A DNA stretch of 64,000 nt, taken from NCBI GenBank assembly GCA_025453975.1, contig JALOPI010000003.1:1-64000 (forward strand). The letters run 5' to 3'. Positions within the stretch are counted from its first letter, which is position 1, and every line of letters starts with the position of its first letter. A program made the position numbers and the translations under genes. Of this stretch, positions 3,001 through 63,019 are shown one piece after another. The notes below the pieces were generated by a model. The model did no database searches and was not told the DNA's origin. It worked only from the letters and a program-made list of their open reading frames with translations. The stretch is from Syntrophobacteraceae bacterium (lineage in GTDB: Bacteria; Desulfobacterota; Syntrophobacteria; Syntrophobacterales; Syntrophobacteraceae).

Positions 3001-3063
3001 AGCCTTTCCTCGCCTCCCTCCCGGAGCAGTCCTTCTCGTCTCTTCAAGCCTCTTCGCGCCCCC

Positions 3064-6005: not shown

Positions 6006-6148
6006 AGCCGGTGTTCCATGGGGCGGGCCGTCTCGAAAGGCGGGAAGTCGTCCATGACCCCTCGTCTCTTTTCTGGTATAGGTCTGAAAAGCGACCTCCC
6101 GCGGCCTCGGCCCTGAAAGCATTGGAAACCCCCAGCCCAGCGTGAGAC

Positions 6149-38363: not shown

Positions 38364-38491
38364 GGGACGCGACCTCCTCGCAGCGTGGGATAACGGGACT
38401 GCCGGCACCCACGGGCAGGACAGCGAAGGCAGGCATCAGTTCAAGCGCACCCACTCAACGGCGGGGCCGGGGCACGCCCGGCCCCCAAACT

Positions 38492-39823: not shown

Positions 39824-40026
39824 TCTGCCTCCCTTCAATGGTTGATGATGAGCGCCAAGAGAATGGATCACTTTAGTCAAAGCGGGGGCCAAGATCAATC
39901 GGATGCATGGGAGACCGCGAAGCATCGAAACCGGGGAGCGGCCCAGTGGAGCCTGCAAGATCCCAGCGCGGCCCGGCGGACATCCGCCCGAATCACGCCC
40001 ACAGCCCGCCGTCTCCGAAGGACCAC

Positions 40027-41640
40027 TCATCGGCCCGATGGGGTGATCCACCCGGAAACCGGGGTCAGCTCCTTCCGATGGGGATCGACTCGGACGATGT
40101 GGGCCCCCCAGGCTCCTATTCGGCGGTTGGGTCCATAGGTCAGCCTGGGGGTCAGCCCCGTCTCGAATTCATAAAGTTTTTCGAGATGATTGATGAGGCC
40201 CTGGCGAGTGACCTCTCGACCGGCCGACTTGAGCCCCTCGAGGAGGATTTTGACGGCGCAGTAAGCCGTGAGCTGGGCATGGAAGTGTACCGGCCGGAGC
40301 CCATGGGCTTCCATCAGGCGTCCGATCTCCCGGCTTCCGGCCGGGGTCTGGTCCAAAGGGAGCATGGGGTAGGAGAGATAGAGGGGATTCGGGTGAGCGG
40401 CCGCCAGCTGAAAAACTTCCTGGGTGACCTGGGAGCCCGAAAGAAAGACGCTGGGGCGCCAGCCCCGGGCTGCTCCCTCCTCGAGGAGGGTCGCAAGCTC
40501 TTCCCTCGAGCCATAAAACAGGACCAGGGTGACTCCCTTCCCTTGCCATTCGCGGACCTTCAACTCGTAGGGAAGGCCGCCGGCTGGATACCGGAGCACT
40601 TCCAGGGGCTGGATGCCACGTCGTCGAGCATGCCCAACGACGGCCTCGATATCTTCCGCGGGCAGCTCATCCTCGGGAGCCGCCAGCGTCAGGCCACCAA
40701 CCGCGATGCCCGTCCCGCCGGAAGCAAAATCCAGGAACGCCCTGGCCTGATCCCCGAGACCCGAAAACAGGTAAAAGACCGAATGATTCATGGATTCGGC
40801 CGGGAGGGGAAACAGGGTGAAAGGACCCACCACGGGTAGATCGATGGAGCCCGCCCAACGAGCGAGCTTCCGGTCGACCCCGACGATGAAGGGAGCCACC
40901 AGGGCGAAAACATCCCCCCCCTCCAACCATCGCCGCAGATTTCCCAAAGCGGCCTCGGGTGAATCCCCAAGCTCGACGACTTCCAGCTCCAGCCTCCGGT
41001 TGTAAATTCCTCCCTGTCGGTTGACCTCCGTGAGACAGGCCTTGAGCATCGACTCCATGGCCAAGCCCATGCCGCCGAACCTGCCTTCCCTGGGAAGAAT
41101 CGTTCCCAGCCGAAGGGCGGAATCCGTGACTCCCGGATCGGGCTCGGCTCCCATGCGCTTGAGATACGCGACAAGGGCATCGAGATCGCCCTCCGGCATC
41201 CTGTACATCGGCATGGTGGGAGCGAGACGCTTGCCCGCCGGATCCATTCCCCGGACGATGGCTGTCCGAAGCGCCCCCTCGTCGTAAGGCGGCCTTTCCC
41301 TTCCGCCCGGAAGCTGGATGCTGTAGGGCTTGGTCAGCTCCTTCCAGGTGATATCGGTGGGCACCACGTCGCTCTCGGGTCTTCCCCGACCGTCAGCTCC
41401 GTGGCAGTTCACGCAGGGCATGGCCTCCCCCGGGACCTCCATGGAGCTCGCGGGGATGTAGGCCGTGATCTCGCCCCCCGATGGGCTGGTGGCGCTGGTG
41501 TAGACCTGCTTGCCCCGGGCCTCCAGCTCTGTCAGCGAAGTCCACGCGCCGCCCCCGGTCTCGACGCCACCCGCGACCGCGACCAGGGTGCAAGCCAGGA
41601 ATCCTCCGATGACCGCATGCGGAAGCTTCGACAATCTCAT
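40027..41640 (-). CDS. Cytochrome c fused to a branched-chain-amino-acid-type periplasmic binding domain
   Basis: A two-part periplasmic protein of 537 residues. After a signal peptide (about 1-24), residues ~35-165 form a class I cytochrome c: heme motif CVNCH (76-80), with Met143 or Met145 in APTMPMYRM as candidate axial ligand. Residues ~170-537 are a type I periplasmic binding fold like LivJ/Peripla_BP_6 (LRLGTILPREGRFGGMG, EVNRQGGIYNRRLELEVVELGDSP). No ABC permease lies nearby, so this is probably a redox-linked sensor or scaffold, not a transport receptor. Its ATG overlaps the SCO-like gene stop (ATGA). It is the last gene of the multicopper oxidase locus. Confidence 0.85.
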   Translation of the reverse strand: MRLSKLPHAVIGGFLACTLVAVAGGVETGGGAWTSLTELEARGKQVYTSATSPSGGEITAYIPASSMEVPGEAMPCVNCHGADGRGRPESDVVPTDITWKELTKPYSIQLPGGRERPPYDEGALRTAIVRGMDPAGKRLAPTMPMYRMPEGDLDALVAYLKRMGAEPDPGVTDSALRLGTILPREGRFGGMGLAMESMLKACLTEVNRQGGIYNRRLELEVVELGDSPEAALGNLRRWLEGGDVFALVAPFIVGVDRKLARWAGSIDLPVVGPFTLFPLPAESMNHSVFYLFSGLGDQARAFLDFASGGTGIAVGGLTLAAPEDELPAEDIEAVVGHARRRGIQPLEVLRYPAGGLPYELKVREWQGKGVTLVLFYGSREELATLLEEGAARGWRPSVFLSGSQVTQEVFQLAAAHPNPLYLSYPMLPLDQTPAGSREIGRLMEAHGLRPVHFHAQLTAYCAVKILLEGLKSAGREVTRQGLINHLEKLYEFETGLTPRLTYGPNRRIGAWGAHIVRVDPHRKELTPVSGWITPSGR

Positions 41641-42248
41641 TTCCCTTCAGACCGGCTCCCCCTCGAAGCCAGGAAGCGATTGATCTCCGTCAGGAGCACA
41701 TCGGGTGACGGGTACCCGTAGAAGCGCTTCCATTGGCCGCGCGGATCCCCCACCAGAGTGAGGGGGATGTGACTGTGCTCGTCCAGGCTCTGACCCACCA
41801 GGTACTGGACTCCGATGCCGTCGAGCACCCGGCCCAAAGCGTTGCGCTCCCCCGACACAAAGACCCACCCAGGCTTCGCCTTCTTGCGGGTGGCGAAGGC
41901 CTTGAGCCTCGGGGGTATGTCCGTCCTGGGATCCACGCTGACGGAGATCAACACCACGTCCCGGCCTAGATGCTCTCCCAGGAGATCCTGCAGCCTGGAA
42001 AAAACGTAGATGAGGATCGGGTAGGCCGTCGTACAGTTGGTGTAAAAGGGAACGATGGCCACCACGCGGTCGCCGATCACGTCCGATTTGAACCGGACCG
42101 TGGAGCCATCCTGGTCCCAGAGCTCCAGGTCGTGAAGCTCCACATCCACCTCGCGGCCGGCGGCGGTGAGCTCGCCCGCGAAGCCCGGAGCCCCATGAAA
42201 AGCCACGATCCACAGAGCCCAGAGCCAGACAACGACGGCTTGCCTCAT
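41637..42248 (-). CDS. SCO1/SenC-like thioredoxin-fold protein lacking one copper cysteine
   Basis: Exported SCO-like protein of 203 residues: signal peptide about 1-24, then a thioredoxin fold. SCO proteins deliver copper using CxxxC and a distal His. Here the motif reads FYTNCTTAYP, with Cys72 kept but the second Cys replaced by Tyr76. The fold is otherwise evident (ISVSVDPRTDIPPRLKAF), and His158/His160 stand where the distal ligand is expected (LDEHSHIPLTLVGD). ATG 42248 has GAGGG upstream and is preferred to a GTG at 42299 that would overlap the beta-propeller gene. It likely serves the multicopper oxidase of this locus, but normal two-Cys copper binding is not possible. Confidence 0.82.
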   Translation of the reverse strand: MRQAVVVWLWALWIVAFHGAPGFAGELTAAGREVDVELHDLELWDQDGSTVRFKSDVIGDRVVAIVPFYTNCTTAYPILIYVFSRLQDLLGEHLGRDVVLISVSVDPRTDIPPRLKAFATRKKAKPGWVFVSGERNALGRVLDGIGVQYLVGQSLDEHSHIPLTLVGDPRGQWKRFYGYPSPDVLLTEINRFLASRGSRSEGK

Positions 42249-42279
42249 GAGATCCCTCACTCCCCCCACCTTCCCACGC

Positions 42280-44343
42280 TCAGGGCGTCGACTGAACACC
42301 GGCCCCAGGCGGGCTTCGAGCCGTCATTACGAGATTCGGAAACTGGCGGGCGTCCATGCCGAGAGAGGCGCACGAGAACGTCAGGTAATGCGGACCCGGA
42401 CGCGCCGGGCTGAACGATGCCTCGTAGACCCCATCGCCCACCTCCAGCACGGGGTACTTGTCGAACCAGGTTCCCGGCGCCAGGGTGGCCTGAAGCCGGA
42501 GATCCGCGACACCCTTGACCGGAGCCCCGCTACCCCGGTCCACCATCCGAACCCGGAGGGTGAAACGCTCGCCCACCAGCGCAGCCCGCTCCCGGGTCAG
42601 GATCTCGATCAGTGGGAGCCGGGCGTCCTTGTCCACCAGCAAAGGATTCGCTGCCGCGGAAAAATCGAAGCAGTGGAGCACCCTGGGGGTATCGAGCAAG
42701 AACGCCACCTGGTAGCGACCTTGCCCCGGAATCCGAACCCTGGCCCCGTAGACTCCGCGCTCTATCTCCCTCACGCCGCGGTCCACCACACGCACGGCCC
42801 GCTGGACGGTCCCGCCATGGCTCCGGAAGCTCCCCATGGCGAACTGCATGCCCTCCATGTAATAGTAGATCATGCTGTCGGCCGGGTTGGCGATGAGAAC
42901 GTGCCCCTCCTCCGGAGTCGGAACGATGGCGTCGGCGAAGGCGTGAAAAGGGGAATCGCCGGGGGGCCTCTGCCCATACTGGATGCGGCTGACGGCCAGG
43001 GTCCGCCCTTGTCCCACCTGTCGCAGTGGGATCAGTACCACCGCTTGGGACCCCTTGCAACGGATATAGGCAAATTCACGGGTGAAAGTGACCTGATCGG
43101 GCTCGCTGTCCATCTCCACCCGCTCGACCACCTTGCCGGTGGCCGTATCCAGAATCAGGAGCTGGCTGGTCCTGGAATTGGCCACGAAGGCGTGACGACC
43201 GTCGGGGGTTATCCGGACCACGCGCAGGCCCGGCTCCAGCTCGAGAGTGCTCAGCACCCGGTGTGAGCCCGCGTCCACCACCGCCACGGTGCCGCTCCCC
43301 GCGCTGGCCACGAAGATCGACTTGCCGAGCTTCGAATAGGCCAGGGAAATGGGATCCACGCCCACAGTGAGCTCTTGAACCCTGGCCAGCCTGCCCACAT
43401 CGATGATGGAGAGCGTGGCTTCCCTGCTGTTGGTCACGAAGGCATACCGGCTATCCTCGGAAAAAGCGATCTCGTGATGGCCCGGCGCCGTGAGGATGCG
43501 TGCAGCCACCTGCCGGGACACCGCGTCGATGACCGTCACGCCGCTCTCCCCGGCCTCCGCCGAGTCGTTGCCCACCCAGAGGTACCTCCCGTCGGGCTGA
43601 AGGGCGATGCGGTAAGGATTCGGACCGGCGTCCACATTCTGGATGACCTTGAAGGTCTCGGTGCTCACCACGGCCACCTGACCCGCCCTGGGCATGGTCA
43701 CGAAGAGCAGCTTGTCGTCCCTGCTGGCCGCCCAGTCTTCGCCGGGACGCTTCAGCTGGATGATGGTATAGAGCTGGGTCACTCCGCTGAAGCTCACGAT
43801 GGGGTCCGTCACCGATATGGTCGCATCGTTGTTGAGGGAGAGGATGAAGTACGAATTGAGATCCACGTCGGGCCGGTAGGCGAGGGAGCCCTGCATGTAA
43901 AGTCCGATCTTCTCCTTGCAGGTGAGGCCACCCCCCTCCTTCTCACCGGGCACGGGCTTGTCCCTGTCCAGCCAGACGGAAGGCGACAGCACCGAAAGGG
44001 GCGCGCCCGTCGTGGCATCCTTCACCGTGAACCTCAGATCAGCCATCTGGCCGTGGAGGATTCTGGAGCCTTCCAGGGCAGCGACGGAAAACTCGATCTC
44101 GGCGTCCTGGCGGGTGAGCTTCTGCTTCACGGGCGCTCCGGGGTCCGGGAGCCCTGCGGGAGCCTCGGAAACAGTGGCGTCGGGGCCGGCCGCGACGTGG
44201 TCGGGCGAAGCGACCGTCGCGGCTCCAGGATTGACGGTCCGCGAAGATGCCAACCCGGTGCTCGCAAGCCCCAGGAGGCCCAGCAGAAAGAGAATGACGA
44301 CTCGCCGCCTCCTCCAGGCCCCAATGATTCTATCTTCCTTCAT
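42280..44343 (-). CDS. Periplasmic YncE/YVTN-type beta-propeller protein
   Basis: 687 residues. After a basic, hydrophobic export signal (about 12-33) comes an Ala/Pro-rich linker and an N-terminal domain (about 75-190, with LTCKEKIGLYMQG). A seven-bladed YVTN-like propeller (about 200-520) follows, with repeated blades such as LFVTMPRAGQVAVVSTET, LWVGNDSAEAG, AFVTNSREATLSIIDV, IFVASAGSGTVAVVDA and AFVANSRTSQLLILDT. The C-terminal region (about 560-687) is an immunoglobulin-like beta domain. Such propellers accompany periplasmic oxidoreductases and may scaffold them or bind metal. It starts 167 bases after the multicopper oxidase and 31 bases before the SCO-like gene. Confidence 0.82.
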   Translation of the reverse strand: MKEDRIIGAWRRRRVVILFLLGLLGLASTGLASSRTVNPGAATVASPDHVAAGPDATVSEAPAGLPDPGAPVKQKLTRQDAEIEFSVAALEGSRILHGQMADLRFTVKDATTGAPLSVLSPSVWLDRDKPVPGEKEGGGLTCKEKIGLYMQGSLAYRPDVDLNSYFILSLNNDATISVTDPIVSFSGVTQLYTIIQLKRPGEDWAASRDDKLLFVTMPRAGQVAVVSTETFKVIQNVDAGPNPYRIALQPDGRYLWVGNDSAEAGESGVTVIDAVSRQVAARILTAPGHHEIAFSEDSRYAFVTNSREATLSIIDVGRLARVQELTVGVDPISLAYSKLGKSIFVASAGSGTVAVVDAGSHRVLSTLELEPGLRVVRITPDGRHAFVANSRTSQLLILDTATGKVVERVEMDSEPDQVTFTREFAYIRCKGSQAVVLIPLRQVGQGRTLAVSRIQYGQRPPGDSPFHAFADAIVPTPEEGHVLIANPADSMIYYYMEGMQFAMGSFRSHGGTVQRAVRVVDRGVREIERGVYGARVRIPGQGRYQVAFLLDTPRVLHCFDFSAAANPLLVDKDARLPLIEILTRERAALVGERFTLRVRMVDRGSGAPVKGVADLRLQATLAPGTWFDKYPVLEVGDGVYEASFSPARPGPHYLTFSCASLGMDARQFPNLVMTARSPPGAGVQSTP

Positions 44344-44510
44344 GAGGATAACCTCCCTTCCAGCTCACAAAACCAATGCAGGATTCTTCTCGACATTCAC
44401 TCCCCGCGCAGCCGTCCTCGCCCAGGACGGGAGAAAGAAGGGGCGCGGGCCCCTTTTGCACCCGCACCCCGGTCATCCGTCACCGGGCTGAGTCCGGTCC
44501 CCCCGATCCG

Positions 44511-47500
44511 TCACTCCACACGGAAGATGGCCCACTGCCCCTCGAGGTTCTTGAAGGCATCCTGCATCCGGATGAGATAGTCTCCACGAATCCTGAAGGC
44601 GCCACCCGCCCCGTGCTCCAGCACGATGTCGTAATGACTGCTGGGGCCCAGGCCTTCCTGACTGCCCACTCTCTGAGAAGTGGGGTTGCTGGCGATGCCC
44701 GTCGGCCCCCCGATGGCCACGTTGCCGTTGTAAGGCTCACGCTGCCACAGATGGCCGTGGATGGCCAGGGTACCAAAACGGGAGGTCCCGTCCGGCACCA
44801 TGAAATGGAACCGCGTGGCCGCGCCGGCTGCAGCCCTGAAGACGGGGGTCTGAGGATCGCCGCCCACCCGGCCATTGGCGAAAAGGTCCGCCTGTGGGAA
44901 ATCCCTCGACATCTGGCCGAAGGGCAGGTGCGGCGGGAACCCGAGGCGGTACCAGGCCGGCTCCGTTCTGTAGTTGATGGTCTTCTGACCCGAATCCTCG
45001 CTGACGTCGGCGGAGAAGCGGCCCTCCCCGCCGATCATGGGAACGGGGTGATTGGTGAGGGAATAGTAGATCTGGGTCTGGTTCTGAAGAATGGCCACGA
45101 AATCACGCACACCCCTCCGAGGCAGGCCGGATCCCCTTACGGAGGCTGAAGCCCGGGAGTCCCGATCCTCCCGGATGATCGCATTCCTCGGGTAGACCAC
45201 CATGCCGCCCACCAGCCCCTTGCCGCCCTGTTCGATCCGGTCAGCGGGCATCAGGTTCAGCCCGCCGAATTCCACCGGGGTGGCGATGAGCCGAAACCGG
45301 TTGCCCACCGTGCGCTGCAGGCGGATGTCCCCGGCATACCAGCGGTACTGCACCACACCTCCGGGAGGGGCCGTCTGGATCGGGTTCCTGCCCACATTGG
45401 CCCCGTCGCTCCGCGTCACGTCATACTCCAGGAGCTGCGGATGAAGACCGACATGGCTCGAGGGCTTGATGTCGTTGAGATTGAACGTCACCTTCGGATC
45501 CTCGCTCTTATCGATGATGGGCGGCATGAGGTGCCATCCAGGAAGATCTGGAGGCATCTCCGCCGGGAGCCGGTTCCTCAGGGTCACTTCGATGCACTCG
45601 CCCGCCCGGGCCCGGAGGATCAGCGGCTCCACGGGAGCGCCCCGACGGAGTCGTCCTGTTCGCCGGTCGAGGTCGCCCGTCCGGACGTACAGGAGAGCCG
45701 TGGGGTTGTGCAGCGGCCCGACTCCCCCCTCCACGACGCTTCCACCCCCTCCGGGCTCGGGCTCGCCCGCGACATCGGGGATGGCCGTCGGCCTGGAGTT
45801 CAGGATGAGCGTCGTGGAGGGAAGGCCATTGGCGTCGATGAGCACATCAGCGGCCCTCACCGCCGTGATATCCACGCGGTTCCGCCTGGCGCTCCTGGGG
45901 CAGACCCCCACGAACTGCCGATCGTTGTCGAAATCCTCGAGATTCTCGATGAATGGAGCACCTCCCCCTTCGCCAGGGAGTGGAGCCAGATCGGGCCTGG
46001 CATCGGCATAGCTCCTCAGGTAGCCCCATATGCCGTTCCAGTAGCCGGGCGATCCAGCGTTCATGGTGTAGAGGTAATCCGCCACCCGCCCATTCTGATC
46101 CTTGTCGGCAATGATGGGCGTCCTCAGCTGGAACTGCTCATTGATCCCCATCTGGTGCGTGTTGCGCCAGCCGGAGCTGATGTTGGCGAACTCCTGGAGC
46201 CACTTGAGGCCATGAACCGTGATGTTGTGCGCCTCCTCGGTGGCACCGGTCTGCACCTTGATGCGGACGCGATCCCCCTGGTAGACCCTCAGGATGGGCG
46301 TGGCAGGGTCCGTGGGCCCCACATCGGCGGTGAGCTGAGTCTCCGCCGGGGTGCCGAGGGGGGTGCCGATGTTGATCGTGCCTCCCAGATCCCCCCCCAG
46401 ACTGGCGGGCGGGAGAGGATCGTTGTAGGTCGTTCCCCGCACCGCCGCCGGCATGAGCTGGTTGAGCTCGGGGATCTTGCGCTCGATGGACGAGGAGAAG
46501 GCGAAGGCCAGGTCCCCAGCCGGTCCGTCGGCCTGCCCCCCGGGGATGGACGTCCCCGGAACGACTTTATCCGGATCGAAGATCCTGAAGCCGACGGGCT
46601 CGTTGCGGTAGTTCACGACATACATGGTGTGGCCTTCGGCATTGATGGCCTCGGGGCAGGGCCGCGGCTGGAGACCGGGGCACTCGCTGGGAAACGCCAG
46701 CACATCGCCGGGGTTGTCGGCGAGGGCGTTGGGGGCTTCCACTCGCACCACCGGGTTGATGGCCTTGCGGAAGCTTTGAGGATTATCCGGGCCGGTGACG
46801 CCGTTGAAGTCCTTCTTGTAGGCGTGCTGGAAGTCCGACCACTCGAGGTAGAACTCACGGAAGCTCGGCTCCAGGGGATTGTTCCCGCCGATGATCCGAG
46901 CCTGCCAGGATGTGGGGCCGCCGTCGCTCCTCGTTCCGAAGGTCTCTTCCCGCTCGTTGTGCTTCCAGATGGACCCCGCGGGCTCCACCAGCAGCGTGGC
47001 GTAGAGCCCCACCTGCTGATGGGTGGAAGGTCCGAAGTGGTCGTGGGTGAAGACCACCCCCAGGGTACGATCCTCGCCCCTGGCGTTGAGGATGGGGTCC
47101 GCGAACCAGCGCTGCACGGTGGTACGGGCTCCCAGCCAACGATCGTTGGGCCCGGGGCCGAAGAATTCATGCTCCGCGGCCGTCAGCCGGCTCCGCCCTC
47201 CCGTCAGGCTCACGATCCCCCCCTCCGCGTTGATGGCGTTGATGCGCTCCCGAACCTCGTCGGGGCTCAGGGTGCCATCCTCGTAGTTGAAGCCGTTGGC
47301 GGCCCCGTCCGCCGAGGTCACGTCGAACTTCACCATGTGGATGTGCTGTCCGATGACATCCGTGGGCGTCCGCACCTGGTAGTCATCCAGCTCGTAGAGG
47401 CTGGGAACGAGATTGGTGTGGTGAAACTCCGCGCAATCGAGCGTGTTCAGCCGCATGACGAAAGGCTCGGGCGGCCTCGCTCCCGACAGGGTTGGCGCCA

Positions 47501-49904
47501 CGTCCTCCCAGAGCGTGATGATGCGCTGCTGCGGGTGATGGTAGCCGATCTTATTGAAGATCATGTCCAGCTGGATGTTGGCCGCCTTGTAAACCCTGGG
47601 GCTATCCGCGCCGAACTCAACGTTCTGAGGAGTCAGGCTCGTCTCGCCCCTGAAGAACGGGTTCGATGCGGCGCTGGTCGGCTGGCCGTTGTCGTCCATG
47701 CAGGGGTCGGCATAGGGCGCGCCCCGAACGGGTGGACGCCCGTTGGTCAAGAAGCCGCCTTCACCCCTGGCCTCCGTGCCGTCGGGCAGGAACGTGTCAT
47801 GAGATCTCAGGCTGTGAAAGCTCATGGCCACCGCTTCCGCATCGGTTCCCAGCTCGGGGAGCTGCACGGCCGTGGCTCTCGCCAGTGCCTTGCTGAAGTC
47901 CCACCGACTCTCCACGTGAGCCGTGAGATCGCCGTCCGCATTGGCTCCCAGGGGTCCCGTGATCATATGGCGCGGAAGTCCGCCGTCCGACAGCAGGTCC
48001 AGGGGTGGCGTGGGCGGACGATGGCCCGCCACGCCCGCAATGTAGAAGGGGTAGCCCGGATTGCTGCCAGCTCCACTCAAGGCATTCCCCCTGAGGTCGA
48101 CCTGGCTGCCGGGAAGACCCAGCTCGGCCCCCGCCCTCACCGTGGCAGGCCCGGGCATGGGTGCCATGGGCGCGCCGGGCACCGGCACCACTCCCGGAAT
48201 CGGCGTTCCCGCCACGATCTCGCCATCGGGAAGGGCACGGGCCCCGCTGACGGGCGCGTTCATCTCAAAGGGGCTCTGCTTCAGGGCAAGAACCGTTCCC
48301 CGCTCGAACACGTCGTGGATCCTCCAGAGCGCCCACATGCCCTGGGCGAAATGGGGATAGAAGTGACAATGGAAGATGGCGTCCCCCGGCGTCTTGTTGC
48401 GGTTCCCACTGCCGCCGTGGGCCACGTCGTAGGTGTACCCGCTCCCCGCCCCGATGGTCTGGCCGTCCAGGTAGGACGAGCTGTCGTTCTGGGGTGAGAA
48501 GGCCCACTGGTGCGCATGGAGGTGGAACATGTGCTGCTCCTTGGGGCCGGCATGGAGGTTGCGAATCTTGACGTGATCGTTGAGATAGCTGTGATGGACT
48601 CCGGCGGGATCGTCCGGATAGAGAGCCCGGGTGGCGACCTGCGTCGGGTCCCTGGGAGGCGGGAGCGACCCGGGAGGCAGCAGCTCCAGTCCCTGGTTGG
48701 CCGGTCTGTCCACGATCATGCCCGGATCGCCCACGACCCAGGACGTCAGGAAGAACTCCTCGTACTTGCAGTCGTTGCAGTCCCACATGGGTCCAACCCC
48801 CAGCCGGTTGGCAATGATCTCGGCCCCGATACCCCCCGTCGCATAGTTGATGGCGAAGGTATCTCGGACACCGTGGAGCGTGTGGCCCAGGACGGCATCG
48901 TTGAAGAAGCCCGCGAAAGACTGTATGGCAAACACCTCGTCATGGAAGATGACGGTGAATTCCCTGAAAGGCTTGTGCTGATCGGGGTTGATGGGCGTGG
49001 TCGCATAGTGGGTCCCCGGGACGAAGCTTCCCCGCCCCGGTCCCGTGATGATGGCGTTGATGTCCGAATGCACGATCCGATTGCCCTGGGTCATCCTGAC
49101 GATGGGCAGCCCGGCCTTGCCTTCGCTCACATAGGGCTCCCTATCGGGATAGACCGCGTCATAATTGAGAATGGGGTGCCCCTGCCCGGGCGTCTGTCCG
49201 ACGGTCGCCAGATCGATCTCCTCCCGGGTGAGCTGACTCCGATACCACTCGGACCCGGCAGGCTCGACGTTCACCGCGCCGAAGAGACCGTGGGTGATGG
49301 TCCCTCCCCCGCCCTCGGCTCCCGCCGTGGCTCCCATGCTGGCCAGCAGATACGTGTTCTCATACTGTGCGTAGAACTTGTATCTCCGGGTCTGGCCGAC
49401 CGGGACGAGGCTGCTCGCGTTACGCCCCACGTGTGAGCCGTCACTGCCGATGTCACCCACGAGCTGCATCCCGTTCACATGGATGGACGCCTCACGGGTG
49501 AGGGGTATGTCGCCTCCCTGCCCCGGGATCGCCGGCGGCGGACCGAGGAGGTTGGTGAAGCTGATCTCCAGACAGCTCCCGGCGTTCATCCTGAGTACCA
49601 GGGGACGCGGACGCTTGTCGGGACGCAGCGTCACGAGGCCCGGAGACAGGGTCCCCCCCGCCGACTCGGGCGCCCCCGAAACCTTGTCCACCACGTCCCG
49701 ACGCAAAGCGTACATCATGCCGTTGGGATTGAAGGCCCCCAGACGATTGTAGAAGAACGGCTGGTCCAGCGCCACCACATCCGCCGTGAAGGTCTCACCG
49801 CACTGTTGCGCCACGGCTTCGGACGGATAGCTGGACACGGCGAGGAAGAAAACCGATACCGCAGCCGCGGTAAGACTCCCGAAGAGATTGAAGTGCCCAG
49901 TCAT
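44511..49904 (-). CDS. Very large secreted multicopper oxidase, MofA-like (1797 aa)
   Basis: Predicted exported multicopper oxidase. The ATG at 49904 follows a perfect AAGGAGGAGAAA; a signal peptide (about 1-34) ends near SEAVAQQ. Three tandem units of about 450-560 residues are recognisable from the recurring segment P.VLR.....C.E....N.L followed by H....-(S)DG...GRN. Unit 1 has HMFHLHAHQW (about 453-462) and the blue-copper motif FHCHFYPHFAQGM (about 509-521); unit 2 has EFHHTNL, GQHIHMV and THDHFGPSTHQQ (about 953-964); unit 3 has AIHGHLW but no HCH. The size and the HLHAHQW/FHCHFYPHF motifs resemble MofA-type Mn(II)-oxidising oxidases, so metal oxidation is a reasonable but unproven role. 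It heads the locus with beta-propeller, SCO-like and cytochrome fusion genes. Confidence 0.88.
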   Translation of the reverse strand: MTGHFNLFGSLTAAAVSVFFLAVSSYPSEAVAQQCGETFTADVVALDQPFFYNRLGAFNPNGMMYALRRDVVDKVSGAPESAGGTLSPGLVTLRPDKRPRPLVLRMNAGSCLEISFTNLLGPPPAIPGQGGDIPLTREASIHVNGMQLVGDIGSDGSHVGRNASSLVPVGQTRRYKFYAQYENTYLLASMGATAGAEGGGGTITHGLFGAVNVEPAGSEWYRSQLTREEIDLATVGQTPGQGHPILNYDAVYPDREPYVSEGKAGLPIVRMTQGNRIVHSDINAIITGPGRGSFVPGTHYATTPINPDQHKPFREFTVIFHDEVFAIQSFAGFFNDAVLGHTLHGVRDTFAINYATGGIGAEIIANRLGVGPMWDCNDCKYEEFFLTSWVVGDPGMIVDRPANQGLELLPPGSLPPPRDPTQVATRALYPDDPAGVHHSYLNDHVKIRNLHAGPKEQHMFHLHAHQWAFSPQNDSSSYLDGQTIGAGSGYTYDVAHGGSGNRNKTPGDAIFHCHFYPHFAQGMWALWRIHDVFERGTVLALKQSPFEMNAPVSGARALPDGEIVAGTPIPGVVPVPGAPMAPMPGPATVRAGAELGLPGSQVDLRGNALSGAGSNPGYPFYIAGVAGHRPPTPPLDLLSDGGLPRHMITGPLGANADGDLTAHVESRWDFSKALARATAVQLPELGTDAEAVAMSFHSLRSHDTFLPDGTEARGEGGFLTNGRPPVRGAPYADPCMDDNGQPTSAASNPFFRGETSLTPQNVEFGADSPRVYKAANIQLDMIFNKIGYHHPQQRIITLWEDVAPTLSGARPPEPFVMRLNTLDCAEFHHTNLVPSLYELDDYQVRTPTDVIGQHIHMVKFDVTSADGAANGFNYEDGTLSPDEVRERINAINAEGGIVSLTGGRSRLTAAEHEFFGPGPNDRWLGARTTVQRWFADPILNARGEDRTLGVVFTHDHFGPSTHQQVGLYATLLVEPAGSIWKHNEREETFGTRSDGGPTSWQARIIGGNNPLEPSFREFYLEWSDFQHAYKKDFNGVTGPDNPQSFRKAINPVVRVEAPNALADNPGDVLAFPSECPGLQPRPCPEAINAEGHTMYVVNYRNEPVGFRIFDPDKVVPGTSIPGGQADGPAGDLAFAFSSSIERKIPELNQLMPAAVRGTTYNDPLPPASLGGDLGGTINIGTPLGTPAETQLTADVGPTDPATPILRVYQGDRVRIKVQTGATEEAHNITVHGLKWLQEFANISSGWRNTHQMGINEQFQLRTPIIADKDQNGRVADYLYTMNAGSPGYWNGIWGYLRSYADARPDLAPLPGEGGGAPFIENLEDFDNDRQFVGVCPRSARRNRVDITAVRAADVLIDANGLPSTTLILNSRPTAIPDVAGEPEPGGGGSVVEGGVGPLHNPTALLYVRTGDLDRRTGRLRRGAPVEPLILRARAGECIEVTLRNRLPAEMPPDLPGWHLMPPIIDKSEDPKVTFNLNDIKPSSHVGLHPQLLEYDVTRSDGANVGRNPIQTAPPGGVVQYRWYAGDIRLQRTVGNRFRLIATPVEFGGLNLMPADRIEQGGKGLVGGMVVYPRNAIIREDRDSRASASVRGSGLPRRGVRDFVAILQNQTQIYYSLTNHPVPMIGGEGRFSADVSEDSGQKTINYRTEPAWYRLGFPPHLPFGQMSRDFPQADLFANGRVGGDPQTPVFRAAAGAATRFHFMVPDGTSRFGTLAIHGHLWQREPYNGNVAIGGPTGIASNPTSQRVGSQEGLGPSSHYDIVLEHGAGGAFRIRGDYLIRMQDAFKNLEGQWAIFRVE

Positions 49905-50029
49905 TTTCTCCTCCTTGTGCCCCACGAGGGCGCCCGGCACCGCTGGATGCGGAACCGGAATGGCACCGGGTCCACATCCTCCCGGCGTTCAATTTCGCGA
50001 ACGACGAACATCGCCGTTTGCGGGTAGGG

Positions 50030-54402: not shown

Positions 54403-56823
54403 TTACATGCGCTCCACGTCGATGGTCCGCTTGAGCTGCCGCAGCCGGTCGAGAAACTCCCGGGTGGCCCCGGAATCCCTGCGGTCGATGACGTGCGGCG
54501 TTATGGCGATGAGGAGCTCGGTACGGTCCCTCTGCTTGCTCCTCACGGAGAAGAGGGGCGAGATGATGGGGATGTCCTGCAGAAAAGGAATGCCGTCCTT
54601 GTCCCGCTGCACGTTATCCTCGATGATCCCCCCAATGACCACCGTGTGACCGTTCTGGGCCAGGAGCGTGGTCTTCACGTTGCGCTCGGTGAATCTCGGG
54701 GCGGTGTTGCCCGCTCCCACCTCGACGCTTTGACCGGTCCTCCGGATGGTCTGCTCCACCTCGAGGCGCACCAAGCCTCCGGCATTGATGTGGGGCACCA
54801 CGTTGAGGATGATACCCGTCTCCTCGTACGAGATGGTGCTGACCGTCGTTCCGCCGGTCCCCTCGCCGATGGCCGTCCCGGTGGGTACGGGCTCCCGTCC
54901 GCCAACGGTGATGGAGGCTTCCTTGTTGTCGGTGGCCAGGAGTGTCGGGGCGGACAGGACGTTGACTTCCGTACGATCGGCGATGGCCGTGACCAGGGCC
55001 GCCAGGCTGGACACGTCCCCCGCGAACAGGCGAAGTCCGGTGCCCACCAGGGCGTCAGGATTGAAGTCGGGCCGGTTGAGAGTGCTGCTGTTGAACAACG
55101 CCTTGAAGTCCCCCGAACGGAAGAGCCACTCGAGACCGTAAGCCAGATCCTTGTTGAGGGTAACCTCGAGGATCAGCACCTCGATGAGCACGGCCCGGGG
55201 CAGAATGTCCAGGGTGTCGATGGTCTTCTTGATCTTGGCGTAGTCGACGGCGTTGGCGCGGATGACCAGGGCGTTGTTGACCTCGTCCGGAATGACCATG
55301 GCTTCGCCCGTCAGCCCGTAACCCGGGGCCTCACCCCCGCCCGCCCCTCCGAACGTACCGAAGGTCCCCCCTCCCGTGCGGCCTCCCGTAACCCCGGTGC
55401 GCCCGGTGGTGCCTGCGGCCCCCGTGGTGGAGCCTGTCGTCGAGCCCATGGTGGAGCCGAAGCTCGAAGTCCTGCCCGTGGATCCGAGACCCGAGCCGAA
55501 GCTGCTTCCCGTGGAGGAGCCCAGACCCGACGACCCCAGTCCCCGCGACGAAGAGCCCAGCGTACTCCGGCCTGTCGAAGACCCCCCCCCGCCGAAGGAT
55601 GAGGATCCAAATCCCCCGCGCGTCCCGAAGCCTCTCGAGCCCAGGGCCCCAACGATCTGCTGCTCGGGCCTGGCGCCACCGCCTCCCCCGCGGAGGCCGA
55701 ACACCTCATTGAGGATGTCGCCGATGTCCCGTGCCAGCCCGTTCTGGACAAAATATACATGGATCTGCTCACCAGTCTGCTCGCCCTGTACGTCGAGGGC
55801 ATTGAGCCAGTATTTGATCGTCTTGAGCAGATCGGGATTCTGGGCCAGACAGAGTATGCCCCCGTAGTTCGGCAGCGGGATGAAGGCATAGTTGGCCCGA
55901 ATGGCGCTCTCCTTGAACAGCTCGAGCTTCCCCATCAGGGCTTCCATGCTCTGCACCGCATCCTGGGGCGAGATGGAGGTGAGGGGGACGATCTCCATGT
56001 TCACCTCCTGCAGGACATTGACGTCCAGGGCCTTGAGCACCTCCAGGATGGTTCGGGCGTTGTCTGAATTCTCCACAAAAATGAGGGTGTTGGTCGTATT
56101 CTCCGAGGTGACTGGCCTGCCGGGAGCGAGGAAGAACTTGATGGTGTTGATGGCCTGCTTGGCATCCATGTAACGCAGCCTGTACATGACGATCAGCGGT
56201 CTCACCCCTGCCGCGTCCCCTTTCAGCAGCTGGGGAGTCGCGATGGGAAGGCTGCTGCTGCTGCTCCGCTGAGCCGGCTGCAGGTAGTACGCCCCCCCTC
56301 GAGGCACCACCGAGATTTCATTGGCTTCATAGACCCTCGTCACCATCTGCAGCAGCTCTTCCTTGGAGTACTCCCCATCCAGGTACATGCTGATGCGCCC
56401 CTGGAGCTTGGGGTCCAGAACGTAGCTCAGCTTCAGATACTCGCCGAACACCTGGTTCGTGACCTCAGACACGTCGGCCTTTTCGAAATTGAGAATGATC
56501 TTTTGGCGATCCCCCGCGGGCACCGGCGGCTCATCCAGGATCTTCTGCCCCGTAGCCGTCAGCAGGCCCGATTTGATCTGCCCACCCAATCCCTCGGGCC
56601 GGGGCGGCAGAAGCTTCTTCCTATCCGCCTTATCCCTTCTGGAGTCGGGCTGTATCTCGACCGACTTCTCCATGTCCTGGGACTGGTCCCCGGAATCCTT
56701 GGGACCATAGGAAATCTTGCCAAAGGGGGACACATCGGGGGGAGCCTTTCTGGGAGGGGCAGAGGCACACCCCGCCAGCAACAAGGCCATCACCACCATG
56801 CAGACCACTCGATCGATTCGCAT
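54403..56823 (-). CDS. gspD: Type II secretion secretin GspD with lipobox and Gly/Ser/Thr-rich insert
   Basis: Outer-membrane channel of the type II secretion system, 806 residues. The N-terminus has a lipobox (LLLAGC, Cys19), so this secretin is probably itself lipidated, which may replace a pilotin. Periplasmic N-domains occupy about 105-375 (IILNFEKADVSEVTNQV; TLIFVENSDNARTILEVLKALD). Residues ~378-501 are a low-complexity Gly/Ser/Thr-rich insert inside the N3-type region. The secretin beta-domain (about 505-795) carries LIEVLILEVTLN, VNVLSAPTLLATDNKEA and the secretin signature VVIGGIIEDN...KDGIPFLQDIPIISPLF. AGAGG precedes the ATG. It is the last gene of the gsp cluster, 146 bases after gspM. 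Confidence 0.95.
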   Translation of the reverse strand: MRIDRVVCMVVMALLLAGCASAPPRKAPPDVSPFGKISYGPKDSGDQSQDMEKSVEIQPDSRRDKADRKKLLPPRPEGLGGQIKSGLLTATGQKILDEPPVPAGDRQKIILNFEKADVSEVTNQVFGEYLKLSYVLDPKLQGRISMYLDGEYSKEELLQMVTRVYEANEISVVPRGGAYYLQPAQRSSSSSLPIATPQLLKGDAAGVRPLIVMYRLRYMDAKQAINTIKFFLAPGRPVTSENTTNTLIFVENSDNARTILEVLKALDVNVLQEVNMEIVPLTSISPQDAVQSMEALMGKLELFKESAIRANYAFIPLPNYGGILCLAQNPDLLKTIKYWLNALDVQGEQTGEQIHVYFVQNGLARDIGDILNEVFGLRGGGGGARPEQQIVGALGSRGFGTRGGFGSSSFGGGGSSTGRSTLGSSSRGLGSSGLGSSTGSSFGSGLGSTGRTSSFGSTMGSTTGSTTGAAGTTGRTGVTGGRTGGGTFGTFGGAGGGEAPGYGLTGEAMVIPDEVNNALVIRANAVDYAKIKKTIDTLDILPRAVLIEVLILEVTLNKDLAYGLEWLFRSGDFKALFNSSTLNRPDFNPDALVGTGLRLFAGDVSSLAALVTAIADRTEVNVLSAPTLLATDNKEASITVGGREPVPTGTAIGEGTGGTTVSTISYEETGIILNVVPHINAGGLVRLEVEQTIRRTGQSVEVGAGNTAPRFTERNVKTTLLAQNGHTVVIGGIIEDNVQRDKDGIPFLQDIPIISPLFSVRSKQRDRTELLIAITPHVIDRRDSGATREFLDRLRQLKRTIDVERM

Positions 56824-56969
56824 ACGTCAGCCTCTCAAAGAAGCGTTGGAGCCAAAACAGCCGCCGCAGCCACTGCTCGGGGATCGTGAGAAGCCCGGAG
56901 GCCAGAGGATGGATACTCCACGGCATTTTCCACAGTTTTGACAACGTGTAAAGGAAGTTATGAGTAAGC

Positions 56970-57551
56970 CTACGATTTTTCTTTCTTTTCCATGAGCGCC
57001 GCCAGAATGACATTCACCACCAGGTCCGGCCCCCCCTTGCGCTGGACCTTCTGGATGTTGATCTCCTGAACCAGCAGCGCGGACTGAAAGTTCCGGGCTT
57101 TCTCGAGGAAATAATGAAATCCTTCGATGGTGGTCATGAAGTTGAACCGGAGATGAACCTCCTGGTAAAGACCATACTCCTTGCTGGCCAGCACCTGGTA
57201 AGTCTTGATATCCAGCTTCTGGCCCTCCTTGGCCGAAAGCATTTCGCTGAGAGTCGCGGCCAGCTGATAGGGATCGTTCCCTTTGAAAAGGAACTTTTGA
57301 AGACCTTTCAGCTCGGATTCCTGCTTGGCCAGATTGTCGCGGATGGACTGGCTCTGCTGCAGCTTCTCGTTGTATTTTCTCACGAGCTCCCGCTGCTGAT
57401 TCACCCTGGCCTCCACCTCCTCCTTGTCGCCCGACAGGGGAGCGATCCAGATCAGGTGCGCCACGATGAGCACCACCACTGAAAGAATCGCAAAGACGAT
57501 CGATGAGCGGTGCTTCCGCGCATCATCGAGGCTCAGCTCACGCCACTTCAT
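56970..57551 (-). CDS. gspM: Type II secretion inner-membrane protein GspM-like
   Basis: 193 residues with a short cytoplasmic N-terminus, one membrane helix (about 18-38, SIVFAILSVVVLIVAHLIWIA), a coiled-coil (about 42-82, EEVEARVNQQRELVRKYNEK) and a C-terminal periplasmic ferredoxin-like domain. This is the GspM/PilO architecture. Sequence identity across GspM is low, so the assignment rests on the layout, the position after gspL (4-base ATGA overlap) and before gspD. GspM binds GspL in the inner-membrane platform. Confidence 0.85.
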   Translation of the reverse strand: MKWRELSLDDARKHRSSIVFAILSVVVLIVAHLIWIAPLSGDKEEVEARVNQQRELVRKYNEKLQQSQSIRDNLAKQESELKGLQKFLFKGNDPYQLAATLSEMLSAKEGQKLDIKTYQVLASKEYGLYQEVHLRFNFMTTIEGFHYFLEKARNFQSALLVQEINIQKVQRKGGPDLVVNVILAALMEKKEKS

Positions 57552-59083
57552 GGACTCTCCTCCTCCGCCGTCGGCGGCTCATCCTCCACGGTGATCTCAA
57601 GAGATTCCTCGGAGCCCGGATCCTCCTCGACACCATCCTCCGGCGCAGCCACCGCCGCCGGGCTCTCCGCCGGCACGCCTCTGGCCGGAGCAACGTCCAA
57701 CTGCAGGTCGCCGATGACCTTCCGAAACTTCTCGGTGTCCAGCTGAAGCTGAACGTTGAATCGCTCCTGCTCCGAGGATGGATTGCGGGTGACGGGTGAA
57801 GCGAACTTCACATCGTTGAAAGCTTCGATTTTGGACAGCTCCGGCAAATACTTGATGGCCGACTTGCTCTCCCCCCGCAGGATGACCTGCCCCTTTCTCA
57901 GGGAAAAGTAGTTCAGGGATGTATCATCGGGAGTGATCTGAGTCAGCAGGGTGAGGAGCTCGAGGAGCGGGTAGCCTTCCATGTTGAACTGGGAAAGGGT
58001 CTTCTGGTCCTCCTCGAATTTGGCAATCTTGGTCTGGAGCTGCTCTATGGGCTTCCACTGCGCCTCCAGGCTGGCCGTCTGCTTTTTGAGACGCAGTGCC
58101 TGATCCTTGAGCTGCCCCAGGCTCTGAACCTGGTAGAGGGCGAAAAGAGCGTAAAGCCCCGCGACGGCAGCCACCGGCCAAACCACCTTGGGAACCTTCC
58201 AGGGCTTCAGGTAGAGAGGCTCCTCGAAGGTCCTGATCTCGTCCTGCTGGAAAAGATGCTCCATCCAGTGCTCGACGAGCTTGCCCCTCACCGCCCGCAC
58301 CCGAATCGGCAGGTGATCCCAGACCCAGCCGGTCTCATCCCTGCGCTCGATGCTGTCCATGTCCTCGATGAGCTCGATGCTGGAGGGCTGCTCGTCCTGG
58401 AGCCCGTCGAGGCACCGTACCTTTTCCTGGAGCAGCCTCAGGCTGAGGGAATCCTTCCCCACGAGGGTGGAATCCAGAAGCAGCCCCTTGAAAAAGCTGT
58501 GGACCTCGAGCTGCGACCGGTTGGTCAGGCGCGCCACCATGCGCACCTGAAGGGCTTCAGGGTCCTCAACCACCTCCGGGCTCAGGAATGAGCCGTAGCA
58601 GAGCGCCGCGGGCAGGACAGCGTAACCGCGGAACATCCCGGACGACAGGGTTTGCTGGAATCGATCGAAAACATCCTTGCGCATGTAGAAAATGGGGACC
58701 GAAAGATGGTCTTCGACCTGAACCGGGGGACCCGCAAAGTGCAAGGTCCCCTCGAGATCGTGGAAGATGTTCTCCTGCCAGTCGAAGGTCAGAGCCTCAT
58801 CCAGCTGATCCTTGAGGGCTGCCGGATACACCGCCCGATGGAAACTGTAGAATTCCAGCGGAAGCAGGAGCACAAGACCCGCGTTCTTGCGGCCTCTTCC
58901 CCGGAGATTGAGCCGGGCGAGACAGTCGAAAACCGACTCCTCCTCTCCCACAGCGACACGCTCCACCAGATCGACCTGCCATTGGCGCCACTGGCGATGG
59001 GCCGTCAAGACTTCCACACGGTCCTGCTCGACATAGACGGCCGTGATGTGATTGACTCTCTGCTTCACGAAGCGCTTCATCAT
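57548..59083 (-). CDS. gspL: Type II secretion platform protein GspL
   Basis: 511 residues from ATG 59083 (GGAG ten bases upstream; an earlier in-frame ATG at 59137 is less well placed). The N-terminal ~300 residues are a cytoplasmic actin-like domain that recruits the ATPase GspE. A membrane helix (about 322-345, VVWPVAAVAGLYALFALYQV) follows, then a coiled-coil and a periplasmic domain (about 370-480). A C-terminal acidic Pro/Ala/Glu tail of ~40 residues is an unusual addition. It overlaps gspM by four bases. Confidence 0.88.
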   Translation of the reverse strand: MMKRFVKQRVNHITAVYVEQDRVEVLTAHRQWRQWQVDLVERVAVGEEESVFDCLARLNLRGRGRKNAGLVLLLPLEFYSFHRAVYPAALKDQLDEALTFDWQENIFHDLEGTLHFAGPPVQVEDHLSVPIFYMRKDVFDRFQQTLSSGMFRGYAVLPAALCYGSFLSPEVVEDPEALQVRMVARLTNRSQLEVHSFFKGLLLDSTLVGKDSLSLRLLQEKVRCLDGLQDEQPSSIELIEDMDSIERRDETGWVWDHLPIRVRAVRGKLVEHWMEHLFQQDEIRTFEEPLYLKPWKVPKVVWPVAAVAGLYALFALYQVQSLGQLKDQALRLKKQTASLEAQWKPIEQLQTKIAKFEEDQKTLSQFNMEGYPLLELLTLLTQITPDDTSLNYFSLRKGQVILRGESKSAIKYLPELSKIEAFNDVKFASPVTRNPSSEQERFNVQLQLDTEKFRKVIGDLQLDVAPARGVPAESPAAVAAPEDGVEEDPGSEESLEITVEDEPPTAEEESP

Positions 59084-59161
59084 CGTGGATCTTCTCCGAG
59101 GTTCCCTGAAATACCCCGCATACCCGACAAAGGTCACCCAAGGCCCGTCACGAGCGGGCGA

Positions 59162-60034
59162 TCAAAGGATCTTTCGATAGAGGACCTCATAAGGCTGTTC
59201 CCCGTCGGCAACGTAGCGCACCACCAGCCACATCAGCACCGAAGGGGGCCCACCGAAGGATCGTCCCAGGGACAGGATGCGGTAGACGCCACCCTTTTCC
59301 CAGGTGATGATCTTCTCTTCCATCTCGTCCCAGGGGTCTTCCTCCAGCATGAGCTGGTTCTTCCCATGAACGGTCAACAGACTGAACAGGGAGTGGATCG
59401 AGGGCAGAGCCGAATCCCACAATTCTCCGTAGGGATTCACCTCCGGGGGCTCGCTCTGGTACCCGTAAAAGAGCTGGGGAGTCATGCCGGGGATGAGCAG
59501 CATCTGGTCGAGGCTGAGGAGCGGCCCGTTGAAGGGTGGGTAAGGGACTCCCTGGTTTTCATAATAGTCCTTTTCGCCACCGTGGAGCCGTTGAAAATCG
59601 TCGGCATCGACGAAATCCGCCACCAGGTCCGCCAGATGCTCGGCTTCGGCCTCGGCCATTCCCGCCCGCTCAAAGACCAGCCGGAGCTGCTCGGGAGGGG
59701 TCAGGTTGACATTGACCTTCCGCCCCTCCGACTCGATGATGACCAGGGCATGGCCCGTATCATACTCCACGAGGTGCGGCTTCCCGTTGGGCTGCCAGCT
59801 CTCCTGCGCCTTGCGTCCCAAACCGAGATCCAGGGGCTCCCCCATGCGCGCCAGGGCTTCGTAGCATCCGCCTATGGCCAGATAGAGGGCCTGGGACCTG
59901 CGATGGACATGCACCTGCTCCTCCCCCTGCAGGCGACTCTCGGCCCCGATCTGGAGCGCAAACCACATCGTCAGGGCGCAGATCCAGAGCACCGCAATGA
60001 CGATGACGCCGTCTTGGCGCCGGATCAGGATCAT
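59162..60034 (-). CDS. gspK: Type II secretion minor pseudopilin GspK
   Basis: 290 residues. The N-terminal segment (IRRQDGVIVIAVLWICALTMWFALQI) is the prepilin-type helix: cleavage would fall after the Gly at residue 9. GspK characteristically lacks Glu at +5 of the mature protein, and here the +5 position is Ala, which fits. The large alpha-helical insert domain is present (GMAEAEAEHLADLVADFVDADD; LSLDQMLLIPGMTP). GspK caps the pseudopilus tip with GspI and GspJ. Its start overlaps the gspJ stop by four bases (ATGA). Confidence 0.9.
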   Translation of the reverse strand: MILIRRQDGVIVIAVLWICALTMWFALQIGAESRLQGEEQVHVHRRSQALYLAIGGCYEALARMGEPLDLGLGRKAQESWQPNGKPHLVEYDTGHALVIIESEGRKVNVNLTPPEQLRLVFERAGMAEAEAEHLADLVADFVDADDFQRLHGGEKDYYENQGVPYPPFNGPLLSLDQMLLIPGMTPQLFYGYQSEPPEVNPYGELWDSALPSIHSLFSLLTVHGKNQLMLEEDPWDEMEEKIITWEKGGVYRILSLGRSFGGPPSVLMWLVVRYVADGEQPYEVLYRKIL

Positions 60035-60849
60035 TCACCTCTCCCGAAGCTCGATTCCCCGAACGCCCCCTCCTCGGTGCGCCTGGGAAAGAGAGAGTTG
60101 GGAACCATGGCATGAATCACCCGTTCCTGGCCATCGGGCGTCCAGCTCACCAGAACGACTCCGGGAACGGTCCTGTCTTCACCCCACTTCTCCTCGAAGC
60201 CTTCGGACTCGCCGTCCTCGGCATACGAAAAAGCCACTTCGGCGACGGCCGTGGAGAAAAATCCCCCGCGCTTCCTGCCCTTGCCCGGCATCGCTTTCAT
60301 AAACTCCTCGAGCATCTCCGAATGGTAGGGATCGAAAGGGATCTCCGCATAGTAGAGCGCCTTGTCTCCGGGAACAAACACATAGCGTGCCACCACGGGT
60401 GCCCCCCTGGTTATGGCCTTGACGGAGTGGGTCGTGGCGAAAGTCAGTGAGTGATCGTCCCCCATGAACACCGGAACGGACTCTTGCTCGATGCGGACCG
60501 GATGGGGCTCGAAGGTGGCCAGCTGCCACTTGAGGAGCTGAATGACCGACGGCATGTCGCTGGGAGCCTGGCTCTGCTGGCGCTCCCAGATGCGGAGCGA
60601 AAACCCGAGGGCCACGGCGACGATGCCCATGACCAGAGAGGAAATGAGCGTGGCGATCACCAGCTCGACGAGGGTGAACCCCGTGGCATCGAGACCGGCC
60701 CAGCGTCCCGCCGGATTCGGATCGGACATCCGCATGCCCGTCCCTACACCGCCATGAGCCGTCGAGCCTCCGAACGTGCCCTCCAGCTTCGGGCCGCCCG
60801 GGCACGCGGCTCCCTCCCCGGCATCCCTGGACCCTTCCCGTCCCATCAT
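60031..60849 (-). CDS. gspJ: Type II secretion minor pseudopilin GspJ
   Basis: Prepilin of up to 272 residues. The prepilin peptidase site ATG|FTLVELVIATLISS lies at residue 57 if translation starts at ATG 60849 (GGAGAGGA immediately upstream), an unusually long leader. ATG 60735 would give a 19-residue leader nearer the norm but with a weaker site. The mature part has the GspJ core (YVFVPGDKALYYAE; DRTVPGVVLVSWTPDG). It sits in the tip complex with GspI and GspK. It starts 10 bases after gspI and overlaps gspK. Confidence 0.9.
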   Translation of the reverse strand: MMGREGSRDAGEGAACPGGPKLEGTFGGSTAHGGVGTGMRMSDPNPAGRWAGLDATGFTLVELVIATLISSLVMGIVAVALGFSLRIWERQQSQAPSDMPSVIQLLKWQLATFEPHPVRIEQESVPVFMGDDHSLTFATTHSVKAITRGAPVVARYVFVPGDKALYYAEIPFDPYHSEMLEEFMKAMPGKGRKRGGFFSTAVAEVAFSYAEDGESEGFEEKWGEDRTVPGVVLVSWTPDGQERVIHAMVPNSLFPRRTEEGAFGESSFGRGE

Positions 60850-60859
60850 TCCTCTCCAG

Positions 60860-61267
60860 CTAATCCAGTGCCGACCTGGGGACCAGAACGCTCATCTCCA
60901 GCCTCTGCCCCCGGCAGGTCAGCATCACTCGATACAGCTCGCCGCCTGTCCGTGCCTCTCCAAAGTCATCCATGTGCGGGACCTTGACGGCCGCGATGAA
61001 AACCGGCGGCGCATCCCGAAACGCCTTGAGCACCATCTGCCCCTCCAGGATCCGCTCCGGCTGAATCAGGATCTCCTGCGCCGCGGCGTCGAGAAACGGC
61101 TGCACCAGGCTCCTTTCCTTCACCCGGTAGGTATACTGAAGAGACGCGGAAATGGCCCCCATGACCCCGCCCAGGATGATCACCCCGATGGTGAGGGCCA
61201 CCATGACCTCGAGGAGCGTGAACCCTTCCGCATGCCCGGGTCCGCTTTTCACCTGGAACACGCTCAT
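60860..61267 (-). CDS. gspI: Type II secretion minor pseudopilin GspI
   Basis: 135 residues. Prepilin signal with cleavage at AEG|FTLLEVMVALTIGVIILGG (Gly15, Glu at +5), typical of GspI, followed by a short globular domain (about 45-135). GspI starts tip assembly with GspJ and GspK. The ATG overlaps the gspH stop by four bases. Length and position match the family. Confidence 0.92.
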   Translation of the reverse strand: MSVFQVKSGPGHAEGFTLLEVMVALTIGVIILGGVMGAISASLQYTYRVKERSLVQPFLDAAAQEILIQPERILEGQMVLKAFRDAPPVFIAAVKVPHMDDFGEARTGGELYRVMLTCRGQRLEMSVLVPRSALD

Positions 61268-61752
61268 CGACTCTCCACCTTGCTCACCCGGATGTTTCCC
61301 ACCAGGGGGTGAATGGTGATCAGGAATGAGCGCTCCTTGTCAAAAGTCACTTCGATGTCGCCGCCCGAAAGGCTCCCGTCGGGATAGAACACCACCAGGT
61401 GATCCTGGGTCTCGGGATCGCGCTCCAGGTGGTCGCTGTAGATGTCCACGTGATCGGGAATCCGGCGGGTCGGCGGCATCCCTATGTCGTAAAGCCGCTC
61501 CGACGGACGGATGCGGAACGCGGTCAGCCGGCCCGAATTCATGGCGATGAGCCGTCCCCGCTTCAGCGTCTGGACGAAATCCTGGAGAAACTCCCGGTCC
61601 TCCATTCTCCTCCACCCGGCGCCGATCCTGGGCAGCACGACGGCCACGACCATGGAGATGATCACCAGCACCACCACGAGCTCGACCATGGTGAACCCGG
61701 CACGGGACCGATCCATTCGCGTCAGATACGGCAATGAAAGCGCCATGGGCAT
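61264..61752 (-). CDS. gspH: Type II secretion minor pseudopilin GspH
   Basis: Prepilin of up to 162 residues. The peptidase site is SRAG|FTMVELVVVLVIISMVVAVVLP (Glu at +5). The globular part (RRMEDREFLQDFVQTLKRGRLIAMNSG; ITIHPLVGNIRVSKV) is of GspH/FimT type, not the major pseudopilin GspG. Starts at 61752, 61746 or 61716 are possible; the last gives the shortest leader, and none has a strong ribosome site. It directly follows gspF with only 50 bases between, where gspG would normally lie. Confidence 0.87.
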   Translation of the reverse strand: MPMALSLPYLTRMDRSRAGFTMVELVVVLVIISMVVAVVLPRIGAGWRRMEDREFLQDFVQTLKRGRLIAMNSGRLTAFRIRPSERLYDIGMPPTRRIPDHVDIYSDHLERDPETQDHLVVFYPDGSLSGGDIEVTFDKERSFLITIHPLVGNIRVSKVESR

Positions 61753-61802
61753 TACCGACCGATCCAGACAGCTCCCGGGACGTCGGAAGACGCCGAGCCC
61801 AT

Positions 61803-62990: not shown

Positions 62991-63019
62991 GAAAGGACGT
63001 TCCTCTTCTCGCCGTCTCG

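Follow-up and report, generated by a model that had tools for sequence, protein, structure and literature searches.

Gene content of the locus

Four genes lie in a row on the minus strand between positions 40027 and 49940 of the window, the stretch of 64,000 nucleotides that we analysed. All four are present in its list of open reading frames, and their Pfam domains (Cu-oxidase; YncE/D1-type propeller; SCO1-SenC; Cytochrom_C plus Peripla_BP_6) agree with an earlier, sequence-only reading of this DNA, which had described four genes on one strand with the last two overlapping. The first gene encodes an MnxG-type giant multicopper oxidase (44511..49904, minus strand). Its open reading frame extends to a GTG at 49940 (44511-49940, 1809 aa), but translation probably begins at the ATG at 49904, which is preceded by AAGGAGG and coincides with the coordinate of the earlier reading. 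Next comes a YVTN beta-propeller protein of 687 aa with beta-rich N- and C-terminal regions (42280..44343, minus strand), recognized by profile matches. The third gene (41637..42299, minus strand) encodes a SCO-family protein of 220 aa without the CxxxC motif (SCO1-SenC match at 3.9e-10); it starts with GTG, with an alternative ATG at 42248, and overlaps by 4 bp the last gene (40027..41640, minus strand), which encodes a 537 aa fusion of a cytochrome c and a type I periplasmic-binding protein. N-terminal hydrophobic segments in the predicted proteins would be compatible with export.

Directly downstream of the operon lies a glutamine synthetase gene (38492-40051, read from its translation), followed further downstream by a gene for a large sensor-kinase-like protein (35250-38408). 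No sigma-70 site was found upstream of the oxidase.

The haem c site of the fusion protein, CVNCH (41401..41415, minus strand), includes C76, C79 and H80; these residues and M143, the likely axial ligand, are invariant in 28 homologues. The model of this protein (pLDDT 88.7) has LivJ/AmiC-type fold matches, namely to leucine-, amide- and aromatic-acid-binding proteins, with a TM of about 0.5 of the query. In the model of the propeller protein (pLDDT 87.9), beta-rich regions flank the propeller on both sides, and an EGM motif near residue 497 is conserved. An L-NosZ hit and Foldseek matches to NosZ raised the question of a kinship between this protein and nitrous oxide reductase, which we discarded because the TM for the whole chain is about 0.34 and just one His is strongly conserved.

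The source genome is a bin, 88% complete with 5.9% contamination, and genome-wide statements made here rest on single-family searches. Neither rpoB nor 16S was detected in this bin, and its gyrB shares no more than 59% with the best match among 32 named genomes. The host is most likely an uncultured bacterium of the GTDB phylum that holds Geobacter. Contamination was rejected as the source of the operon: in tetranucleotide composition the window is close to contigs C11 and C106 (r 0.98, or 0.96 when the operon is taken by itself), which carry further copies described below.

The oxidase as a relative of MnxG

The type 1/2/3 copper ligand set of the oxidase is complete, with the motifs in the order L3, L4, L1, L2. 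HMFHLHAHQW (48504..48533, minus strand) provides ligand His of types 1, 2 and 3, HCHFYPHFAQGMW (48333..48371, minus strand) a type 3 His and the type 1 Cys, His and Met, and HIH (47337..47345, minus strand) and HDH (47037..47045, minus strand) provide type 2/3 ligands. The ligand His of the first motif, the H, C, H, H and M of the second and both His of each of the other two are invariant, so that ten His, the Cys and the axial Met are retained in all 82 homologues including Pseudomonas MnxG; this invariance partly reflects selection of the sample, as two His pairs and the HCH motif fall within the patterns or stretches used to find the loci.

Searched with the NCBI model of MnxG (NF041487), the window oxidase reaches 1785 bits, its two matching stretches covering almost all of the model between them. 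This score is below the equivalog cut-off of 3100 bits, which Pseudomonas MnxG proteins exceed (3757 and 3894) and a Methanoperedens homologue does not (1625); the window protein is thus an MnxG relative and not an equivalog. The MnxG of the Bacillus Mnx complex (PDB 9bxa) aligns to it with E=4.6e-79 and is homologous over several stretches, copper-motif regions included, but it has only 1227 aa against about 1800 in the window oxidase. A tree of 82 oxidases places the window protein with that of locus L079 in a clade (support 100) that is sister (support 99) to a 32-row clade holding Pseudomonas MnxG. The window oxidase is not inside the latter clade, which does include the second oxidase of the source genome, encoded on contig C11. 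Judged by family profile and phylogeny, the operon is of the mnxG type, and its oxidase belongs to a clade sister to that of Pseudomonas MnxG.

The sequence-only reading had likened the enzyme to MofA. Its best family match is MnxG, and the MofA operon carries mofB and mofC instead of the partners seen here (PMC8218464). On these two grounds, with MofA judged by the description of its operon, we set it aside as the nearest relative. At that level of description, the Leptothrix operon (mofA, a Mip-type mofB and the cytochrome c gene mofC) resembles the window in its large multicopper oxidase, its downstream c-type cytochrome gene and its link to Mn(II) oxidation, but its description mentions neither a propeller nor a cytochrome/binding-protein fusion.

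Comparison with the Pseudomonas mnxG operon

The earlier reading also knew of no established pathway that combines exactly these four genes. Such a combination does exist in Pseudomonas putida GB-1, a Mn(II) oxidiser (PMC11409713), whose putative mnxG operon comprises mnxG, a YVTN propeller, two successive SCO1 genes, an ABC-SBP/cytochrome c gene and SurA (PMC11409713 Table 4; PMC8218464 Fig. 2c). The window has the same four families, arranged in this order along a single strand and led by the giant multicopper oxidase. The differences lie in the details: there are two SCO genes in GB-1 and one, without CxxxC, in the window; no SurA gene stands directly downstream in the window; the window oxidase shares about 45% identity with Pseudomonas MnxG and falls short of the equivalog cut-off; and a sigma-54 site is predicted at PmnxG of GB-1, whereas none like it was found in the upstream region of the window oxidase, matches in the window as a whole being at chance level. 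By gene order and sequence likeness, the gene combination is already known from Pseudomonas and the window holds a divergent version of it, an operon ordinary in kind and unusual in detail. What is new beyond the known operon is the wide spread over bacteria and archaea, the loss of the SCO motif and a second copy beside bc-complex genes.

The propeller also recalls PQQ-linked periplasmic clusters, which contain TIGR03866 propellers and ABC-type binding proteins. It matches TIGR03866 at 99 bits; however, this is under the cut-off of that family (287), and the neighbour of the propeller in the window is a copper oxidase.

An altered SCO protein

In place of the copper/redox CxxxC of SCO proteins, alignment shows CTTAY in the window protein (42021..42035, minus strand). 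A Tyr stands at the second Cys, while the distal His is kept, with a short insert before it. SCO1/SenC chaperones are defined by a CxxxC and a distal His that bind copper; as the CxxxC is replaced here, the window protein cannot bind copper in this usual way. The same CTTAY-type change and insert are found in the SCO proteins of loci L079 and L036, in whose second SCO the second Cys is missing as well; L079 retains this second gene.

Between the window and L079, SCO is the most conserved of the four proteins (69% identity, against 63% for the oxidase, 51% for the propeller and 43% for the fusion). The SCO protein of L036 is 67% identical to that of the window, while the oxidases share only 44%. 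This conservation points to selection and to an exchange of SCO genes between operons, and argues against simple decay; going by these identities, the altered SCO is probably under selection. L036 has the look of a mosaic operon, with its SCO gene at 8251-8916 and its oxidase gene at 441-6269. A Cys-less SCO of this sort constitutes a natural experiment on the role of SCO proteins for multicopper oxidases.

Distribution of the operon

We compared 80 named loci of relatives found with two peptide patterns, a sample biased to homologues that keep these patterns and in which related genomes are not independent. A propeller gene is present in 59 of the 70 relatives with at least 2.2 kb of sequence downstream of the oxidase. 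Propeller, SCO and fusion are all present in 37 of the 57 relatives with at least 6.5 kb downstream, and in 36 of these 57 they follow the same order, so the grouping is not due to chance. The sequence-only reading would have been refuted by a lack of such co-occurrence, which these counts contradict. Its view of a dedicated extracytoplasmic oxidase module, plausibly acting on Mn(II), with co-occurring partners is upheld to this extent, while its view that no established pathway has this gene combination is not.

The full operon is kept across a range that takes in Pseudomonas, Acidobacteriota and the phylum of Geobacter, and the oxidase-propeller pair occurs also in Chloroflexota and Methanoperedens, which shows a widespread module and not a Pseudomonas peculiarity. 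Methanoperedens and several Chloroflexi have the pair only. In the two Methanoperedens archaeal loci L017 and L019, the MnxG-related oxidase and the propeller have no SCO or fusion gene within 10 kb. Relatives also occur in Jettenia and Geobacter, and in the phylum that holds Geobacter the oxidase was found in 9 of 395 genomes sampled.

Additional copies in the source genome

Contig C11 carries a second mnxG operon (locus L014:3442-15883) with genes for oxidase, propeller, a SCO with an intact CTTIC and fusion. This operon runs on, on the same strand, into genes for a Rieske protein, a cytochrome b6-like protein and a subunit IV-like protein. The cytochrome b beside it is the only one (PF00033) that we found in the 88%-complete bin; among relatives, 22 of 60 have a PF00033 cytochrome b somewhere in the genome. 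No bc genes were found beside the window operon, and the 80 loci of relatives likewise have none in their flanks of up to 10 kb. Contig C106 (L016:7333-8067) holds a broken oxidase gene and a remnant of the cytochrome/binding-protein fusion near the contig end. The source genome also encodes two haem-copper oxidase subunits I, which makes respiration of O2 plausible in the host.

Proposed function and alternative explanations

The explanation that we favour, and consider probable, is that of an extracytoplasmic Mn(II) oxidase operon of the mnxG type. We infer Mn(II) as the substrate and the following roles for the gene products. The oxidase would be exported and would oxidise Mn(II) in one-electron steps at the type 1 copper, probably via Mn(III) to Mn(IV) oxide; the electrons would then pass to O2 at the trinuclear copper centre. 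SCO may help in copper loading or enzyme assembly, although not through the canonical two-cysteine chemistry, and the propeller could be a docking partner or a maturation factor. The cytochrome c/binding-protein fusion might carry electrons in the periplasm, with its binding domain responding to a small organic molecule as ligand. What bacteria gain physiologically from oxidising Mn(II) is itself not yet known (PMC11930936).

Some of our observations count against Mn(II): the occurrence of relatives in Methanoperedens, Jettenia and Geobacter, whose expected physiology does not include Mn(II) oxidation with O2, the loss of the usual CxxxC and His copper binding in SCO, and the lack of a sigma-54 site upstream of the oxidase. 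Could an operon of the MnxG fold act on another substrate? Multicopper oxidases are broad in substrate, and Fe(II), Cu(I) or a phenolic or other organic compound might be oxidised instead, with the binding domain sensing or binding the substrate or its product. The divergence of the clade, which scores 1785 bits where 3100 are required and is only about 45% identical to Pseudomonas MnxG, suggests that the substrate may have shifted, and the likeness of the binding domain to amino-acid, amide and aromatic-acid binding proteins points the same way, as do homologues from groups like Methanoperedens and Jettenia, which are not known to oxidise Mn. However, the Pseudomonas mnxG operon contains the same kind of fusion, which is therefore no argument against Mn, and the genome keeps a second operon whose oxidase falls within the Pseudomonas MnxG clade. 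We regard a substrate other than Mn(II) as unlikely.

The genes for Rieske, cytochrome b6-like and subunit IV-like proteins that continue the C11 operon evoke a respiratory module, in which the cytochrome c fusion and a bc complex would hand electrons from the oxidised metal or substrate to the chain, making the oxidation energy-conserving. The partners do resemble exported electron carriers, and no PF00033 cytochrome b other than that on C11 was found in the bin. Yet a multicopper oxidase that itself reduces O2 would bypass the chain, bc genes are lacking at the window operon and around the 80 relatives, and cytochrome b is so patchy among relatives that its proximity on C11 could be coincidental. 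Such a module seems improbable to us, and slightly more so in the more specific form of a respiratory mnxG type, whose operons would feed the fusion and a dedicated bc complex and whose Cys-less SCO would mark a changed assembly of the copper enzyme. The bc linkage is nonetheless a concrete lead on whether Mn oxidation can feed respiration. As to the window operon being a spare copy that is losing its function, the missing CxxxC and the fragments on C106 would fit, but none of the four reading frames is broken, no copper ligand has been lost and, relative to L079, the altered SCO is better conserved than the other three proteins (43-63%), besides being well conserved in L036; redundancy followed by decay is thus very improbable.

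Linkage to type II secretion genes

The Mn(II) oxidase that we propose would act outside the cytoplasm, and the window contains a candidate for its export. A type II secretion gene cluster, gspE-F-(G/H)-I-J-K-L-M-D, lies on the same strand (54403..64000, minus strand) and runs off the window to position 64726 of the contig; it is linked to the mnxG operon and at most a putative part of it. Between the end of the cluster and the start of the oxidase, which lies downstream, there are 4.5 kb. The bin has two secretins, that of this cluster and one on contig C45. At least two of gspD/E/F occur within 10 kb of the oxidase in 9 of the 80 relatives' loci, mostly in Pseudomonadota, against 0 for eight control genes, a contrast to be read with the caveat that some E/F matches may be type IV pilus homologues, which have more copies per genome than the controls.

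This arrangement recalls P. putida, where, according to passages in PMC3798386 and PMC3056050 that cite de Vrind 2003, a Gsp-related pathway is required for secretion of the Mn-oxidising factor; the same papers report that cytochrome c maturation and a secretion pathway are needed for Mn oxidation. The linkage in the window supports an extracellular site of action, and the nearby type II secretion system may take the oxidase through the outer membrane, a route that has been reported for the P. putida factor. In the Pseudomonas-type loci L044 and L086, secretion genes flank the mnxG operon on both sides.
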